Source of the DNA: Deltaproteobacteria bacterium
GTDB lineage: Bacteria; Desulfobacterota; Dissulfuribacteria; Dissulfuribacterales; QOAL01
Assembly: GCA_024275145.1 (NCBI GenBank)
Contig: JAJRZR010000010.1
Coordinates: 1 to 41,379, forward strand
Length of the DNA: 41,379 nucleotides
Direction: 5' to 3'
In this document: in pieces, positions 23,932-31,929 of the stretch
Position numbering within the stretch: position 1 is the stretch's first letter
Layout of the letters: every line of letters starts with the position of its first letter
Position numbers and translations under genes: made by a program
The notes under the pieces: generated by a model
Seen by the model: only the letters and a program-made list of their open reading frames with translations
Database searches by the model: none
What the model was told of the DNA's origin: nothing

Positions 23932-23995
23932 CGGCATTTGAAGCCGCAACGGGCCCATATTTTCACCGAATCTGCTAAGTTGTCAGGGGTTGGAG
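23932..23995 (+). repeat. Family-1 repeat fragment D at the 3' end of the UvrA-like gene
   Basis: GGCATTTGAAGCCGCA, then TTCACCGAATCTGCT and GTCAGGGGTTGGA, match the central part of copies A and B. The terminal repeats are missing. It overlaps the last codons and TGA stop of the UvrA-like gene, so the repeat may supply that gene's current C-terminus. TGCGGC and GCCGCA (23930-23948) form a small hairpin. Confidence 0.65.
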
Positions 23996-26466
23996 TCTGC
24001 GCTCCTTTCGGGGGTTCCTTGTGCAATTATATGTCCTCCTTCAGGGCCGCCTCCCGGGCCTAGTTCTATTATCCAATCTGCAACCGATACAAATTGGGGC
24101 TGGTTTTCTATGATTACGAGGCTATGCCCCTGCTCCAGCAATTCATCCAATATGATTAGAAATTTTTGGATATCTGCCAAGTGCATGCCTCTAGTGGGCG
24201 TGTCCATGAGGTAGATACCATGGCTCTCACGGTTGCCTCCCACCAATTCCCTGGCCATTTTAAGCCGTTGGGCCTCTCCACCTGAAAGGCTGACAGAGGG
24301 TTGACCTAGTTGCAGGTAGCCAAGGCCAACCCGTTCCAGTATCTCCAGCGGCTTTCGTATCTTTGGTATCCTGGAAAAGAAATCCGCGGCTTGCCTTACG
24401 GTTAGGCTCAATACTTCTGCCATGTTCAGGCCCTTAAAGGTAATCGACAAGGCGTCCCTGTTATAGCGCATACCTTGGCAGATATCGCAACGGCATGTGA
24501 CAGGTGGTAGGTACTTCAGATTTAGCGATACGGTTCCCTGTCCCTTGCACCTTTCGCATCTTCCGCCCTTGAGATTTATGCTGAAATAGGACGGTTCAAG
24601 GCCACGTGCCCTTGCTTCAGGTGTCCTGGAGAACATTTCGCGGATGTAGGAAAAGATCCCCATGAATGTGGCAGGCATGGAGCGTCTTGATCTGGAAAGT
24701 GGCCCCTGGTCTATGGATATAACCCTGTGGGGCTGTATCTGACCCTTGATCCGTATCTTTTTTGTCTATACTGGTACAGCCCTGCCCCTGGAGGCCTTCA
24801 ATGCCCCTTCCAATTCAGGCAACAACTCCTTGAATATGAGCGAGCTCTTCCCTGCCCCGGACACCCCTGTAATACAGACCAAGCGGTTCAAGGGAATCTT
24901 GATCGTGATCCCCTTTAAGTTCGACGCCGTGGCATCTTTCAATTCCATCCATCCCCAAGGAGGGGGCCCTGTTGTCCTGTTGCGCCTTTCCAGTCTCTTG
25001 GTGCCATTGATAAATGGCCCTGTCAGGCCTATACCCGATCTTTTAAGGGCCGCCGGTGAACCCTCGAAGACTATCCTTCCCCCGGCCTCCCCAGCACCAG
25101 GTCCAAGTTCGATGACGTGGTCTGCCTTTGATATGATTTCAAGGTCGTGTTCCACCAGTATAACGGTATTGCCCTGGTCCTTTAGATTCTGGAGGCAGCG
25201 GCTCAGTGCCCTTCGTTCCCTGGGGTGCAGATCTTGGGTTGGCTCGTCAAGGATATAAAGACAACCAGTCATTTCCTTCCCAAGCTGGGAACCCAGCCTG
25301 AGTCGCTGAATTTCCCCGCCGGACATGGCGGTGAGCGGCCTGTCCAGTTCCAGATAGCCCAGGCCCATTTCTGCCAGCGGAACCAGTCTGCCCAGGATGG
25401 ATTCGATTATACGCATGGCCCCTACCAGTGCCGCCCGCTTTCTGTTAGCGTCTTTACTCAATGCCTTTTTCAGCGCAACGAGCCAGTCAAGTGCCCTTGA
25501 CACGGTGAAATGCGTAAATTCAGGGAAGGTGATCCCACGGATCCTTACATTGGAGGCAAAATCGCCTAATCCGGCCATGTGATGGGGGGCGTTTCCCGAT
25601 GGGCCTTGAGGGTTATTGAGAACCGGTGCAATATCGGATTGCAGGGGGGAAAAGAGTTCGGGTATCAATCTTGGAAAGCCCCTGCCACAGCTCGGGCAAG
25701 CCATATTTTCAGAAAACCTGAGGTCATATCGTGCATTGGTTCCAGGTTCCTGGACAGCGATGACAACGGTGCCATTGCCGGCCTTCAGGGCAAGATTTAG
25801 TGAATCCACGAGGCGTACCATGATACCAGGCTTCAGCACTATTCGATCGATTATCAGCTCGAGAGATATCGGTGACTTATCCATGTCGTCTGCTTGATCC
25901 AGGAAGATCATTCGCCCATCTACCCGTAATCTCAAAAATCCCTGTTGCCTTAGTTCCCCGATCAGGTCCTCAATGGCCATATCTACTGTATTTTCAGAGA
26001 GGGGGGCCAGTATCGTAACCTTGGTTTTGTCCTTCAGCGAAAGGATTTTGTCCGCGATTTCGTCCACCGTGTGGGCATGGATGGGTATCTGGCAGACAGG
26101 GCAGTAGGCAGTTCCATGGATGGCAAACAGCATACGGAGTAGGACCAGGATATCTGAACGGGATGCCAAGGTGGATCTTGATGCCTGTAATGGCCTTTTC
26201 TGTTCCAGGGCAATTGGCGGAGGAAGCGAATCGATGCCATCCACAGCGGGCCGGTCCAGGAAATTTACGAACCTTCTGGGGTTCATCTCCATGGAATCGA
26301 GATAACGTTGTTGCCCTTCAGCAAAGAGGCAATCCAACACCAGGGTAGATTTTCCGGACCCGGACGGCCCGGTTACAACGGTAATGGCCCCTAGTGGAAT
26401 CGCCAAATTGATGCCCTTGAGGTTATGTTGGCGGGCGTTCCTAACGAGGATATATTTTTCTGACAT
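23983..26466 (-). pseudogene. UvrA-like excinuclease ATPase, interrupted by in-frame TAG
   Basis: A UvrA paralogue with two ABC ATPase modules and zinc motifs. Module 1 has Walker A GPSGSGKS, signature MSGGEIQRLRLGSQLG and Walker B YILDEPTQDLH. Module 2 has GVSGAGKSSL, the zinc finger CERCKGQG...CDICQGMRYN, and signature SLSGGEAQRLKMA. A TAG at 24766-24768 cuts the frame about 25 codons after the second Walker A; on both sides the same frame continues (RAVPV-stop-TKKIRIKGQIQPHRVISID), so there is no frameshift. Walker B of module 2 reads YLMDTPTRGMH, lacking the usual catalytic Glu. Start MSEKYILVRN is preferred over TTG 26523. It is either a decaying paralogue or a gene needing amber readthrough. 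Confidence 0.82.
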
Positions 26467-26715
26467 CATGGGGTTGGCCACATCCCGGTTCGTTTTCGGG
26501 AAAGATGCATGATAAGATAACAAATCGGGTGCCCATTGTCCCGGGTTGACATTGCCAATGAAAGATTTTACCGTAATACACCCTGGATAGGGATTGTGTT
26601 TTCTGCCAAGCGGGGCGCATCTCTTGGGCGTTAAGTTGTAGATAACTGTTTAATTATTTAAAATAAGTTTTTGCAAGACGTTTGAGGATCCCAGCAGGTA
26701 TCTAGGTTGGTGATT

Positions 26716-26863: not shown

Positions 26864-27316
26864 TTAGCGTCCCCTGTTTTTTATTTCTACCGTTATCTTT
26901 TCCCCTGTATCAGGATCTTTGTAACGGATCTTTCCTTCCAGCTTGTCCAGCTCGACCCTGTTGTCAAAGCGGACCTTTAATATGAAGTGGCCAGGTCGTG
27001 GTTTTCTGATCAACCATTTTGCCATGCCCTTATCAGGTTCATAACTGTCTGCCCTTGGGCTAGAACCGATCATCTTGTAGCTCTTGGGCATGGTGAGGTA
27101 GAGTATCAATGCCGACGGGGCCGGGGCCTTTATCACCAGTTCCAACGATATCTCCTGCCCGACCCTTTTCATCCCTGCAGAGACACCAGAGGCCTGGGCA
27201 ACGGCATCAATACCCGTACTCATTGAACCAAGCACCAAGACGGCCAATAAGATCATGGACCTTCTTGCCGCCAGGGATCGGAGCGCTGCCCACAACAATA
27301 AATGATATCTCAGCAT
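26864..27316 (-). CDS. Secreted protein of unknown function, beta-rich
   Basis: 150 residues. An N-terminal signal sequence (MILLAVLVLGSMSTGIDAVAQA) is followed by about 100 residues with alternating hydrophobic strands (GQEISLELVIKAP, ALILYLTMP, HFILKVRFDN, GEKITVEI), suggesting a beta-sandwich. I do not recognise the family. ATG at 27314-27316 is preceded on the minus strand by AGGAGG. It lies 129 bases downstream of, and in the same direction as, the HTH/EF-hand membrane protein, whose outer domain also looks beta-rich, so the two may work together. The stop TAA lies 50 bases from the tRNA-Sec gene. Product in the periplasm or at the surface. Confidence 0.7.
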   Translation of the reverse strand: MLRYHLLLWAALRSLAARRSMILLAVLVLGSMSTGIDAVAQASGVSAGMKRVGQEISLELVIKAPAPSALILYLTMPKSYKMIGSSPRADSYEPDKGMAKWLIRKPRPGHFILKVRFDNRVELDKLEGKIRYKDPDTGEKITVEIKNRGR

Positions 27317-27427
27317 GATTTTCCTAGCCTCCTGACCAAAGCATTAACCTGGATCGGTGCCAATAAAGACAGATCCTTAAGGTGAATGCATACGGGTAAA
27401 TATAATGTAACATCTAAGTCCTGTTTT

Positions 27428-27445
27428 GAGCTACATAATTTGGGT
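27428..27445 (-). repeat. Solo family-1 repeat end (fragment E)
   Basis: GCTACATAATTTGGG followed by TTTAA closely matches the right end of copies B and C and the TTTAA flank of copy C. The TTA at 27446-27448 is the stop codon of the HTH/EF-hand gene. No matching left end was found nearby, so this is a remnant. Confidence 0.5.
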
Positions 27446-28408
27446 TTAATCCAAGAGGATAAATTTTTTCGTGACAGGGTCCCATCGATATCCTCCCTTG
27501 GACCAAATTTTCTTTACTTCCTCCAGGCCAAGGGCCGCACCCTTTGTGTCCCCTAGCCGATCGTATACGTCAAGGATTTCATTGTCATCAATCTTTCCGT
27601 CTGAATTCGTGTCTGCCCAGTGATAGGGAGCTATCTCCAGGACCTTGTCACCGGTTACAGGGAATGCGATATTGCCTCCCCTTTTTACCGTAACGTCGCC
27701 GGTAAAGAAGACAGTCCTGTTGAGGGAGGCCGAATCCCTGACCTTGGCAAGATAGCAGAACCTCTTGTTTTTTATTTCCCCCTTCGATATCCACTTTATT
27801 TCGTTATTCTGGTTTAATAGCGCTGTAAAATCTGGGAGTCCCTTAAGGGGAATACACTGGAACGGGAGTTTTTCCTTAAGGATTAGGGCCAGCTCTGCCG
27901 GGTTGCCTTGATTTACCGTAATGATGACAGGGAAGGATTGTCCCGGTGGACAATGAGGGGGCAGGTACCTGGTAGCTGAGATCTCGATCCTTTGTTCGGG
28001 ACGCAGGAAAAAGATGAGGCCGGCGAAGACGAGCATGGATAGCAGGGTTGCCAGAACGATCGATACCTTCTTTTTGTATCCCATTCGGGGTTCATTCGAT
28101 TTGGAACTGTCTTCATCTGGAATGCCTTCGATAGGTGTATCCCTTGTACCTTCGATATCCCTTCCTTTTCCCTCATGTTCGAGGATATCTTCCAGAGAGA
28201 CCCCAAGGACATCCGCCAGTTTCACGGCGTTTTCCCTCTTTATGCTGGGATAGCGCCTGTTTTCCCATCGGGAGATAGTGTCCGTGGTAACTCCAACTGC
28301 AGTGGCCAGGTATAGCTGTGTCAATCCCTGGGCCTCTCTAAGGCTACGGACCTTTCCGCCGTCGATCTTTATCATCAGGGCATTGTTGTACCGGTTGACA
28401 TCCTGCAT
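27446..28408 (-). CDS. XRE-type HTH membrane protein with outer EF-hand
   Basis: 320 residues. An XRE/Cro helix-turn-helix at about 15-75 (LREAQGLTQLYLATAVGVTT, SRWENRRYPS) is in the cytoplasm. After a charged linker comes one membrane helix at about 112-132 (VSIVLATLLSMLVFAGLIFF). Then an outer, beta-rich domain (ISATRYLPPHCPPGQSFPVI), and near residue 265 a calcium-loop motif DTNSDGKIDDNE like an EF-hand or dockerin half. The layout recalls RodZ or one-component membrane regulators, but the EF-hand ending is not usual in either. It could sense calcium or bind a secreted partner, such as the next gene's product. These roles are inferred. The repeat end E touches its stop. Confidence 0.75.
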   Translation of the reverse strand: MQDVNRYNNALMIKIDGGKVRSLREAQGLTQLYLATAVGVTTDTISRWENRRYPSIKRENAVKLADVLGVSLEDILEHEGKGRDIEGTRDTPIEGIPDEDSSKSNEPRMGYKKKVSIVLATLLSMLVFAGLIFFLRPEQRIEISATRYLPPHCPPGQSFPVIITVNQGNPAELALILKEKLPFQCIPLKGLPDFTALLNQNNEIKWISKGEIKNKRFCYLAKVRDSASLNRTVFFTGDVTVKRGGNIAFPVTGDKVLEIAPYHWADTNSDGKIDDNEILDVYDRLGDTKGAALGLEEVKKIWSKGGYRWDPVTKKFILLD

Positions 28409-28746
28409 AATTTTTCCGTGAAGACATATGTCTCCATCAGGGCTGTGTTTTCATGTCCCGGTGGCGCTATTAAGTATACGGGCCACAACAAGATACAGAA
28501 AATTGCCCTCCATGATTTTGGAAATATAACCCATTATCATGATTTTGCTTATTGAAAAATGCCAGTCCTTGCAGGATGCCGTACCATGTTGCCTGCTGCA
28601 GGGCAACATTCTCGGGGTTTTACGCATCATACTTGCTGTACTCTGAAAGACCTGTAAAACGGGTCGCCCCGGATATCTTCTTGTCAACCTTTCGATATTA
28701 AAGGCAATTTATTCCAGATCGGGTCTATGTAGATAGATATGCCCCT

Positions 28747-28823
28747 CTATACCTATAGATGTCTTCTATCATTTTTCAGCCCCGCTGCATAATCTTCAAA
28801 TCAAAGGCGGCCGCCTATTTGAA
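28747..28823 (+). promoter_or_regulatory. Palindromes upstream of the cytochrome gene
   Basis: CTATA-CC-TATAG (28747-28758) lies upstream of a larger symmetric site: TTCAAAT (28795-28801), GGCGGCCGCC (28806-28815), ATTTGAA (28817-28823). These sit 57-133 bases before the cytochrome ATG and look like operator or hairpin elements. No binding protein can be assigned. The remainder of 28409-28879 shows no convincing gene. Confidence 0.4.
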
Positions 28824-28879: not shown

Positions 28880-29398
28880 ATGAAGAAAAGGAAGGATCGA
28901 AGGAAGCGTTATCTTCTGGGAAGGAATGCAATAGGATTCCTTGGTGCCCTTGCCATGGCGGGTGCCCTTATGCTGGGAGGCTGGGTACCTGTCATGGCCG
29001 GCCCGGTCTCGGTGAAGTCAGGTATCCCCGAGACACTGGATCTGAATGTCCAGAAGATGTGCCCCGGGATAAAAGGATTGCCAAGGGATAGAAAACAGGT
29101 CAGGGCATTTTCCCACAGGGCTCATGCACTCGAGTACCTAAAGGGAAACGAACAGTATTCCACAAGGCCTTATACCGATGAATTTACCTGCTCGGCGTGT
29201 CACGAAGGGGCATCGAGTATTGCCGGGATAGAGGGCGTACCTGCCTGTGAACAACTCGAAAAGGAGCTGATGAAGGCAGGAAGTATAAAAAATCCATCTA
29301 AATACTTCCACAAGACCTGCAAGTCCTGCCACAAAAAGATGAAAAAGGCCGGGAAGACCACTGGTCCCGTAAGTTGTAAGGGATGCCATGGCAGATAG
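28880..29398 (+). CDS. Small three-haem cytochrome c, secreted
   Basis: 172 residues with a signal peptide (long basic N-region, then FLGALAMAGALMLGGWVPVMA). Three CxxCH haem motifs are present: CSACH at 104-108, CKSCH at 147-151, CKGCH at 166-170. His79, His82 (FSHRAH) and His144 are candidate distal ligands. Three bis-His haems in a small periplasmic protein recall cytochrome c7/c3-type electron carriers of deltaproteobacteria, though the spacing of about 40 residues between the first two motifs and two extra Cys (61, 123) are unusual. AAGGAG precedes ATG 28880. It ends in TAG and is followed by a secreted protein and a TonB receptor gene, so a role in respiratory or metal chemistry is possible. 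Confidence 0.88.
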   Translation: MKKRKDRRKRYLLGRNAIGFLGALAMAGALMLGGWVPVMAGPVSVKSGIPETLDLNVQKMCPGIKGLPRDRKQVRAFSHRAHALEYLKGNEQYSTRPYTDEFTCSACHEGASSIAGIEGVPACEQLEKELMKAGSIKNPSKYFHKTCKSCHKKMKKAGKTTGPVSCKGCHGR

Positions 29399-29513: not shown

Positions 29514-30017
29514 ATGAAACACGTATTTATTCCAAGAAGAACGACATTTTCCCTGGTTGTTGCATTGGCGATGATCGCCGGTCTTGCAATGCCAGGCCTG
29601 GCATCCACACAGAGAGGAAAGGTCGTTGCCCTCATGCGTGGTGATAATGGAATCTGTGATGTGATCAAGGGCCTTAAGGAGCCGTGGTCGGATAGGCCCT
29701 GCAATGTTCAAGGGAATACCCCGGATCTAGTGGTAATTCGTGGTGGCCTGCCCGGAAGATTTGAGCCGGGGAAGATGGTTATCCTCAAGACAAAGGGCCT
29801 GAGGAAGAATGTGGCGAAGGTAATTGCCGTGATTGAAAGGATCGATAACCTGGAGGATCTGGCCAATAACCTCAAGGGTAAGAACCTTATATTATGGATA
29901 TGTGAGAAGACGGGAAGGATCGCCGTGCTTAAGGCTGAGAAGGAATACCTTCCCAATGTGGATGCCAAGGTGAAGATGAAACTGAGATCAAAGAGGACCA
30001 TGGTGGAGGGGTGCTGA
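29514..30017 (+). CDS. Secreted protein of unknown function
   Basis: 167 residues. A signal peptide (LVVALAMIAGLAMPGLAS) ends near residue 31. The mature part is basic and contains two Cys early on (GICDVIKG and DRPCNVQG), then a strand-rich segment (RFEPGKMVILKTKGL, VAKVIAVIERI), a third Cys (LWICEKTGR), and a C-terminal Cys. I do not recognise the family. GAGAAAAAGGAGA precedes ATG 29514. It lies between the cytochrome and the TonB receptor, on the same strand, and is probably co-transcribed with them, suggesting a periplasmic partner. The stop is TGA. Confidence 0.7.
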   Translation: MKHVFIPRRTTFSLVVALAMIAGLAMPGLASTQRGKVVALMRGDNGICDVIKGLKEPWSDRPCNVQGNTPDLVVIRGGLPGRFEPGKMVILKTKGLRKNVAKVIAVIERIDNLEDLANNLKGKNLILWICEKTGRIAVLKAEKEYLPNVDAKVKMKLRSKRTMVEGC

Positions 30018-30162
30018 CCGACCGGTAGGTTCCATCATCCAAATTTCCAGGTCTACCAGGGGCAACATGGCCTGCCACAAAATTTTGTGTTTGGCCAGGT
30101 TGCCCTTTTTTGGTTACTATGGGGTCGATATCGATCAAGTATGTGACCTGTCCGTGGTATGC

Positions 30163-31929
30163 ATGAAAATAAGGGGGGGGGTCTTTTGGTTTGTCAAGAA
30201 GGAGGGAGACATAGGAAAGATTCCAGTTGCCAGCCTGATATTTGTTCTGGCCGTATTAATCCCCTGTTCCATGTGCAGGGGCACTGCGAACCGGCCGGAC
30301 GTCATAATCGTTACCAGTCAGGAGATCAAGGCCCTAAAGGTCCATAAGATATCCGACGTGCTTAACCAAGTACCTGGTATAAGGGCAGGTGATTCCTTCG
30401 TGACCATAAGGGGATCACGCAAGGTAAAGGTCCTGTTGGACGGTAGACCAATAAACGATCCAACCTCAAGCCATGGCGGTGTAAAGTTTGACATGGTCTC
30501 AGTGGAAAACGTGGAACGGATCGAGATTTACCGTGGAAAGGGTGGGCTCCAGTATGGCGACGATGCAAGCGGTGGGGTCATAATCATCACGACCAAGGGG
30601 ATGAAGGCCACCCATGGCAATATCAAGTCCTACCTTGGAAATTTTCGTACAAGAGACATCAGTGGAAACATCCGGATAAATCGTGGTGCCATTGGGATAG
30701 GACTTTCGGCTGGCCATGAATACACCAACGGTTATCAGGTTAATTCCGATCGGAAGAAGGAGCGCATAGGTGGGAAAGCGGTGTACCGGTGGCACGGGGG
30801 TGATGCCCTGCGCCTTTCCGCAGGTTATATAGAGGACGACAGGGGCCTTGCAGGTCGGATAGAATATCCCACCCCCCATTCCAGGAAAAGGGGAAGGATG
30901 CTTTCCCTTGCCGCGGGTATGAGTGTTCACGGTGTCGAGAGCGAGGCATTTTATAACCACTCGAATACCAGGAACAGGGACCCTGACAGGGGGATCGACA
31001 GCTTTATAACCGTCAAAAAGGCAGGAGGGGACCTGAGGGCCTCCATGAAGTATGGTAAGTGGATAAGCCTTGGTTACGGTGGGAGCCTTCGTTGGGAAGA
31101 GGGGGAGAGTAGCCGTTTCAAGGCCAGGCAGGAGGATTCATTTTCGGTTTTCGTTGTTGGAAGTCTTCGGCTTGAACGTTTGCCTGTCAACCTTTCTGCA
31201 GGGCTGCGTAAGAGCGTGTATTCGGATTTTCCAAATACCTTGAATCCCGAGATAAAGGCATCGTATCGGCTTAGTCCATGGCTTGTTGCCATATCGTATA
31301 GCCGCACCAACAATATACCATCTTTCTATCAGCGCTTTGACGAAACGAGTGTGAAACGCCCCAATCCTGATCTTGGTATGGAAAAGGCGCAAAATTTTAG
31401 TATATCATTTTCCTGTACCCCTTCCTCCATAATGGATTTTGGGGCATCGTTATTTTTCAATCGTGTAAGGGGCCGCATTACATACGTTCTGGGTGATGAT
31501 GGTATAGGTCGGTACGAGAATTTTGGAAGGGTTACATACAAGGGTGGGGATTTCCTCATAAATTGGAAGGTTGCAAGATGGCTTTCATTGCAGACGACCT
31601 ATACGTATTTGAAGGCAATAGACGAGGGGACCGGCCACTGGATGCCAAGTAAGCCCCGCCACAGGTTGAAGGGTGAGATCAGGTACCGCCCGTACACAGA
31701 TCTGGCTATTATACTGAGCCTGCGATATGATTCCAAGCAATATACGCGTTCAGACAATAAATCATCGGTTCCGGACCGTCTGATTGGAAACCTCAGGGCC
31801 GAATACTCCCTTCCATGCGTTGATTTTTTCATAGAGGCCAAGAATCTTTGGGACAAGAGATATCTCTATGGTGATGGAGGCCTTGCCCCTCCGTTTACAT
31901 GGTACGCGGGGATAAATTACAGGTTTTAG
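30163..31929 (+). CDS. TonB-dependent outer-membrane receptor
   Basis: About 588 residues from ATG 30163. A hydrophobic stretch (VASLIFVLAVLIPCSMCRG) acts as the signal peptide. The plug domain (DVIIVTSQEIKALKVHKISD, VPGIRAGDSFVTIRGSR, VENVERIEIYRGKGGLQYGD, GGVIIITTK) is followed by a 22-strand-type barrel ending in aromatic Phe (YAGINYRF), as outer-membrane proteins do. It is on the short side for the family, like cobalamin or small siderophore receptors. The start region contains a G9 run (30173-30181) in codons 4-7, so length changes would switch translation off. The frame is open upstream to 30067 but weak as a start. The next gene is a ModE-like regulator 4 bases on. Ligand unknown. Confidence 0.9.
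   Translation: MKIRGGVFWFVKKEGDIGKIPVASLIFVLAVLIPCSMCRGTANRPDVIIVTSQEIKALKVHKISDVLNQVPGIRAGDSFVTIRGSRKVKVLLDGRPINDPTSSHGGVKFDMVSVENVERIEIYRGKGGLQYGDDASGGVIIITTKGMKATHGNIKSYLGNFRTRDISGNIRINRGAIGIGLSAGHEYTNGYQVNSDRKKERIGGKAVYRWHGGDALRLSAGYIEDDRGLAGRIEYPTPHSRKRGRMLSLAAGMSVHGVESEAFYNHSNTRNRDPDRGIDSFITVKKAGGDLRASMKYGKWISLGYGGSLRWEEGESSRFKARQEDSFSVFVVGSLRLERLPVNLSAGLRKSVYSDFPNTLNPEIKASYRLSPWLVAISYSRTNNIPSFYQRFDETSVKRPNPDLGMEKAQNFSISFSCTPSSIMDFGASLFFNRVRGRITYVLGDDGIGRYENFGRVTYKGGDFLINWKVARWLSLQTTYTYLKAIDEGTGHWMPSKPRHRLKGEIRYRPYTDLAIILSLRYDSKQYTRSDNKSSVPDRLIGNLRAEYSLPCVDFFIEAKNLWDKRYLYGDGGLAPPFTWYAGINYRF
30173..30181 (+). repeat. G9 homopolymer in the start of the TonB receptor gene
   Basis: Nine consecutive G residues occupy codons 4-7 after ATG 30163. 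Such tracts change length by slipped-strand mispairing and are known switches in surface-protein genes. No other G-run this long was noticed in the window. Confidence 0.7.

Follow-up and report, generated by a model that had tools for sequence, protein, structure and literature searches.

A membrane-tethered XRE-type protein as a predicted regulator of periplasmic multihaem cytochromes in the Desulfobacterota

We propose that a protein encoded in the analysed window (the whole stretch of 41,379 nucleotides, contig JAJRZR010000010.1 of assembly GCA_024275145.1), here called R, is probably a membrane-tethered regulator that activates a periplasmic cytochrome of the PpcA or c3 type, with a secreted protein, S, as its co-component. 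In this mechanism, the cytoplasmic XRE-type helix-turn-helix (HTH) of R would bind paired half-sites with a 22-bp spacing, lying against the -35 position of the cytochrome promoter. A periplasmic signal would be read by the outer beta-sandwich of R, braced by an EF-hand-type loop, and the response would most likely be activation of a small multihaem cytochrome of the periplasm, similar to c7/PpcA or to c3. In many lineages, S would pair with the outer domain of R as a co-component. The proposal is built from what can be read in sequence, namely the architecture of R, its conservation, the homology between S and R, the predicted operator and where it lies, and its association with R and with cytochromes, both in cis and in trans. 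PpcA-type and c3-type cytochromes are periplasmic electron carriers in metal- and sulfur-respiring bacteria. The features of the window are as follows.

26864..27316, minus strand: S, secreted beta-sandwich protein of 150 aa, homologous to the R outer domain (adjacency in homologous loci; hhalign)
27446..28408, minus strand: R, membrane-tethered XRE-type regulator of 320 aa, predicted (ORF, Pfam, homologues, model)
27578..27613, minus strand: EF-hand-type loop of R, residues 266-277, DTNSDGKIDDNE (45/45 homologues; model)
27632..27982, minus strand: outer beta-sandwich of R, residues 143-259, Ig/cohesin-like (AlphaFold2 model and Foldseek)
28007..28078, minus strand: single membrane helix of R, residues 111-134 (hydropathy and AlphaFold2 model)
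28187..28351, minus strand: helix-turn-helix of R, residues 20-74 (Pfam HTH_3, E 3e-14; phylum-wide conservation of the recognition region)
28736..28763, plus strand: predicted operator for R, with the sequence GATATG-N16-GATGTC (degenerate relative to the conserved 22-bp pair), ending 117 bp before the cytochrome start
28790..28795, plus strand: predicted -10 box TAATCT, 26 bp after the operator (a 25-26 bp spacing is fixed across loci)
28880..29398, plus strand: C, secreted cytochrome with three CxxCH motifs, predicted R target, divergent from R (Cytochrom_CIII, E 1e-7)
29514..30017, plus strand: E, secreted protein ending in an invariant EGC; probably shares a transcript with C (locus comparison)

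The genes for R and S lie on the minus strand where the initial annotation had placed them, and the parts it had given to R, an XRE HTH, one span, a beta-rich outer domain and an EF-type loop, are all present. The HTH belongs to the XRE/Cro-CI DNA-binding class, with HTH_3 scoring 53.2 bits against a Pfam cut-off of 23, and hydropathy gives only one hydrophobic span (117-135), with Lys and Arg commoner before it than after it. An AlphaFold2 model of R built with homologues (pLDDT 84.9) contains HTH helices at 17-75, the membrane helix at 111-134, the beta-sandwich at 143-259, the calcium-type loop and then a helix at 275-285. Foldseek comparison with the PDB relates the outer part to Ig-like and cohesin modules. 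S was modelled as well (pLDDT 88.5), with an N-terminal signal or transmembrane helix and a beta-sandwich at 45-147. The earlier description of S as a secreted, beta-rich protein on the same strand as R stands.

The initial annotation had also suggested that R senses calcium or a surface, with the EF-hand as the sensor. In favour of this, the loop is no chance match, and its ligand positions are retained in 45/45 R homologues (1, D; 3, N or D; 5, D or N; 8, I or V; 10, D; 12, E), all of which have the form of an EF-hand loop (12 residues with acidic ligands at 1, 3, 5 and 12); the EF-hand_5 match itself, at residues 265-278, has an E-value of 0.15, below the Pfam threshold. However, the loop is invariant whatever the neighbours or partner of R, with or without S. 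The model contains no helix entering the loop, only the exiting helix at 275-285, and the loop joins the end of the sandwich directly. Because of this invariance and the missing entering helix, the loop is probably structural, as in dockerins, rather than a calcium sensor. Calcium in the periplasm is generally abundant enough for such a site to stay occupied, and we regard calcium or surface sensing by R as improbable.

R is found in 30/60 relatives and in 36/395 genomes across the phylum, always in a single copy; the weak second matches in the genome scan are S. All homologues that are not truncated at the edge of a contig have the HTH, and its recognition region, with the consensus VGVTTDTISRWEN, is near-invariant across the phylum. 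Homologues lacking the HTH or the EF-hand, which the initial annotation had named as evidence against its reading, did not turn up among these complete homologues or among the 45 inspected for the loop.

The order of parts in R, an HTH, one span and a beta-rich outer domain, is also that of RodZ, and a search of this genome with the RodZ_C profile reveals no RodZ elsewhere, as might be expected if R were itself a RodZ-like cytoskeletal membrane protein instead of a DNA-binding regulator. We consider this very improbable, since RodZ_C is missing from R, the recognition region is near-invariant and, across the phylum, the presence of a matching operator goes with that of R. RodZ was rejected as the identity of R, with RodZ_C (PF13464) having no match in R or anywhere in the genome, and so was a ToxR/CadC-type identity, the winged-helix domain Trans_reg_C (PF00486) not being among the Pfam matches of R. 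HTH_3 is clear in R, and the earlier suggestion of a membrane one-component regulator unlike RodZ and ToxR is supported.

The initial annotation overlooked the gene divergent from R. This multihaem cytochrome and the conserved operator in front of it point to a regulated target. The arrangement S-R / C-E, or its core R / C-E, recurs in 17 of the 24 compared loci with the cytochrome divergent from R, and in 9 distant loci, one of them from a Geobacter isolate, the gene divergent from R likewise encodes a small cytochrome, with three or four CxxCH motifs. The genes outside the four-gene cassette (CstA, oligopeptidase, GlyQS, molybdopterin enzyme) differ among loci and were not considered part of the system.

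The predicted operator, GACATCGGG-N10-CCCGATGTC, lies between R and the cytochrome, roughly 100-130 bp before the cytochrome start. The words CCCGATG, CGATGTC and CCGATGT occur in 12-13 of the 24 R/cytochrome intergenic regions, against about 0.5 expected. Half-sites of the form GAYRTC are spaced 22 bp apart, or two helical turns, in 13/24 of these regions, whereas shuffled sequences gave at most 2; the same pair is found in 1.6% of control tiles from the same loci. A stricter, order-specific form of the operator occurs in 14/47 genomes, once per genome, and 13 of these sites are beside R; in the fourteenth genome (G044) R was not found, and the site is near a contig end. In L117 and L128, the half-sites upstream of R are 32 bp apart (three helical turns) rather than 22. 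An expectation-maximization (EM) motif search returned GC-rich words and was set aside.

The geometry of these sites bears on how R might act. Of 20 loci, 13 have a TAnnnT box at offset 25 or 26 from the proximal half-site, where 0.9 would be expected, and 3 further loci have a TATA box at 25 with the final T missing. Since this TATA-like box lies at a fixed distance from the proximal half-site, the operator would abut the -35 position. We infer that R binds this operator, and the box about 25 bp downstream, together with an operator against the -35, suggests activation. Activators such as lambda CI at PRM sit against the -35 likewise. Alternatively, R could bind the same predicted operator and repress the cytochrome promoter until a periplasmic signal releases it. 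XRE proteins are often repressors, and the divergent gene layout would also suit self-repression by R. However, the predicted site abuts the -35 instead of extending over the -10, and in all but one family the -35 hexamer is a poor one. Repression is in our view a minority possibility, and activation of the cytochrome by R is the more likely reading.

We scanned 395 genomes across the phylum with the pattern GACATCGG-N12-CCGATGTC, allowing at most one mismatch. Matches were found in 14/36 genomes with R versus 17/359 without it (Fisher 1.9e-8); the strict pattern is missing from 22 of the 36 genomes with R. Eleven of the 14 matches in R-containing genomes lie no more than 450 bp ahead of a small cytochrome with at least three CxxCH motifs, compared to none of the 16 matches inspected in genomes without R (all except that in G130), and in ten of these 11 genomes the centre of the site is 96-124 bp from the cytochrome start codon. 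A caveat to this comparison is that 7 of the 11 cytochrome-linked sites adjoin R, and several of those loci helped define the motif. The remaining four cases (G303, G341, G358 and G375) are in trans: no cytochrome is beside R, and the operator is elsewhere, 103-121 bp before a cytochrome. These cases played no part in the motif definition and come from two genera only (Fisher 5.9e-5). Because in them the site follows the cytochrome and not R, R would act in trans. One of the cytochromes concerned matches solved PpcA/c7 structures with E-values down to 9e-19. In loci L119, L124, L126 and L129-L132, R lacks both a cytochrome neighbour and a site upstream of it.

S is encoded directly downstream of R on the same strand, separated from it by 129 bp in the window, and the same placement is seen in the other loci of the order, where the L029 copy is strongly diverged. 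No family or PDB sequence match was found for S, and its fold matches are Ig-like and weak. Profile comparison shows what the first reading missed, that S is homologous to the outer domain of R (hhalign probability 96.5, E 9e-10, 90 columns); the S profile also matches R in many distant loci. As a secreted relative of R's own sensor domain, encoded next to it, S has the expected look of a co-component, and it would most simply act in the periplasm by pairing with the outer domain of R. The conserved pairing of the two genes anticipated by the initial annotation is found in every locus of the order, but it is lost in Geobacter-like and other lineages, and S is present in only 6 of 21 distant loci. 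Its absence from the Geobacter-like lineages indicates that S is not essential to the basic mechanism.

A different partner for S has to be considered. Among the 21 distant loci, those with an EGC-tailed secreted protein all have S (6/6), and none of the others does (0/15) (Fisher 1.8e-5, for a co-occurrence noticed post hoc among loci whose related genomes are not independent), and the S of L125 itself ends in EGC. S might then work with the EGC-tailed E or with the cytochrome and be merely co-encoded with R. Against this are the homology of S to the R outer domain, its position just 3' of R on the same strand, and the fact that, among 60 relatives, S without R is seen only at a broken contig end in G037, aside from a weak match (E 0.004) within an unrelated long ORF in G017. 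We therefore judge this arrangement somewhat unlikely and favour S as a co-component of R. Even so, the co-occurrence is a hint that S goes together with the EGC-tailed protein, and that what is sensed relates to the electron-transfer machinery of the envelope.

The EGC tail has a distribution of its own. A hydrophobic residue followed by EGC ends 30 ORFs with a signal-like N-terminus versus 0/3912 without one, and permuted EGC tails number 0 among the signal-bearing ORFs. EGC-tailed secreted proteins are encoded at 29514-30017 of the window and in L062, L064, L080, L115, L117, L123, L125, L128 and L133. The tail is also carried by unrelated proteins beyond the E family: a VWA-like protein and S in L125, a cytochrome in L062 and a lipoprotein in L169. 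EGC has the appearance of a C-terminal tag for sorting or attachment. The small EGC-tailed proteins of L115, L117, L123, L125, L128 and L133 resemble ExtJ (NF040942), with E-values of 5e-5 to 1e-12, all matches scoring below the curated cut-off. ExtJ is a protein of unknown function from the Geobacter ext electron-transfer cluster (PMC5877670), and the small E proteins that resemble it in these distant loci would be targets or neighbours of R.

More tentatively, R, S and E could together form a sensor of the envelope electron-transfer state, in which the twin domains of S and R would read an anchored EGC-tagged partner and switch on the periplasmic cytochrome. If true, R/S/E would be a co-component system with an origin separate from that of ToxR/ToxS, and the EGC tail would be a new C-terminal sorting tag.

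The closest known concept is that of the co-component systems ToxR/ToxS and VtrA/VtrC (Kinch et al., 2022; PMC9214523). As in those systems, R is a tethered protein with a DNA-binding domain and, within the order, an adjacent gene encodes a candidate periplasmic partner. Unlike them, R has an XRE-type HTH instead of a winged helix, its outer domain is an Ig/cohesin-like sandwich with an EF loop instead of the VtrA/ToxR fold, and its predicted target is a cytochrome rather than virulence genes. S differs from VtrC, a lipocalin-like partner, in being a sandwich homologous to the sensor domain of R. With CadC-type regulators, R shares a cytoplasmic DNA-binding domain, one span and a periplasmic sensor in one polypeptide; its DNA-binding and sensor folds differ from theirs, and in many lineages it has S as a candidate partner. 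The XRE-type HTH, single span and beta-rich outer domain are shared with RodZ, from which R is set apart by the missing RodZ_C, the EF loop and the predicted operator. The genes preceded by the operator include homologues of c7 cytochromes, the predicted targets. Literature searches of open-licence papers returned no earlier description of such a regulator, and the open papers searched name no dedicated membrane regulator for PpcA- or c3-type cytochromes. The comparison suggests that pairs of a regulator and a co-component arose more than once. The conserved, predictable operator makes control of the cytochrome directly testable in cultured relatives.

On either side of the cassette in the window, a TonB-dependent receptor gene (30067-31929, plus strand) directly follows E and is outside the conserved four-gene unit, and a UvrA-like frame (23983-26523, minus strand) is broken into two ORFs (231 and 585 aa), corresponding to one 848-aa ORF in L061 of the same genus.
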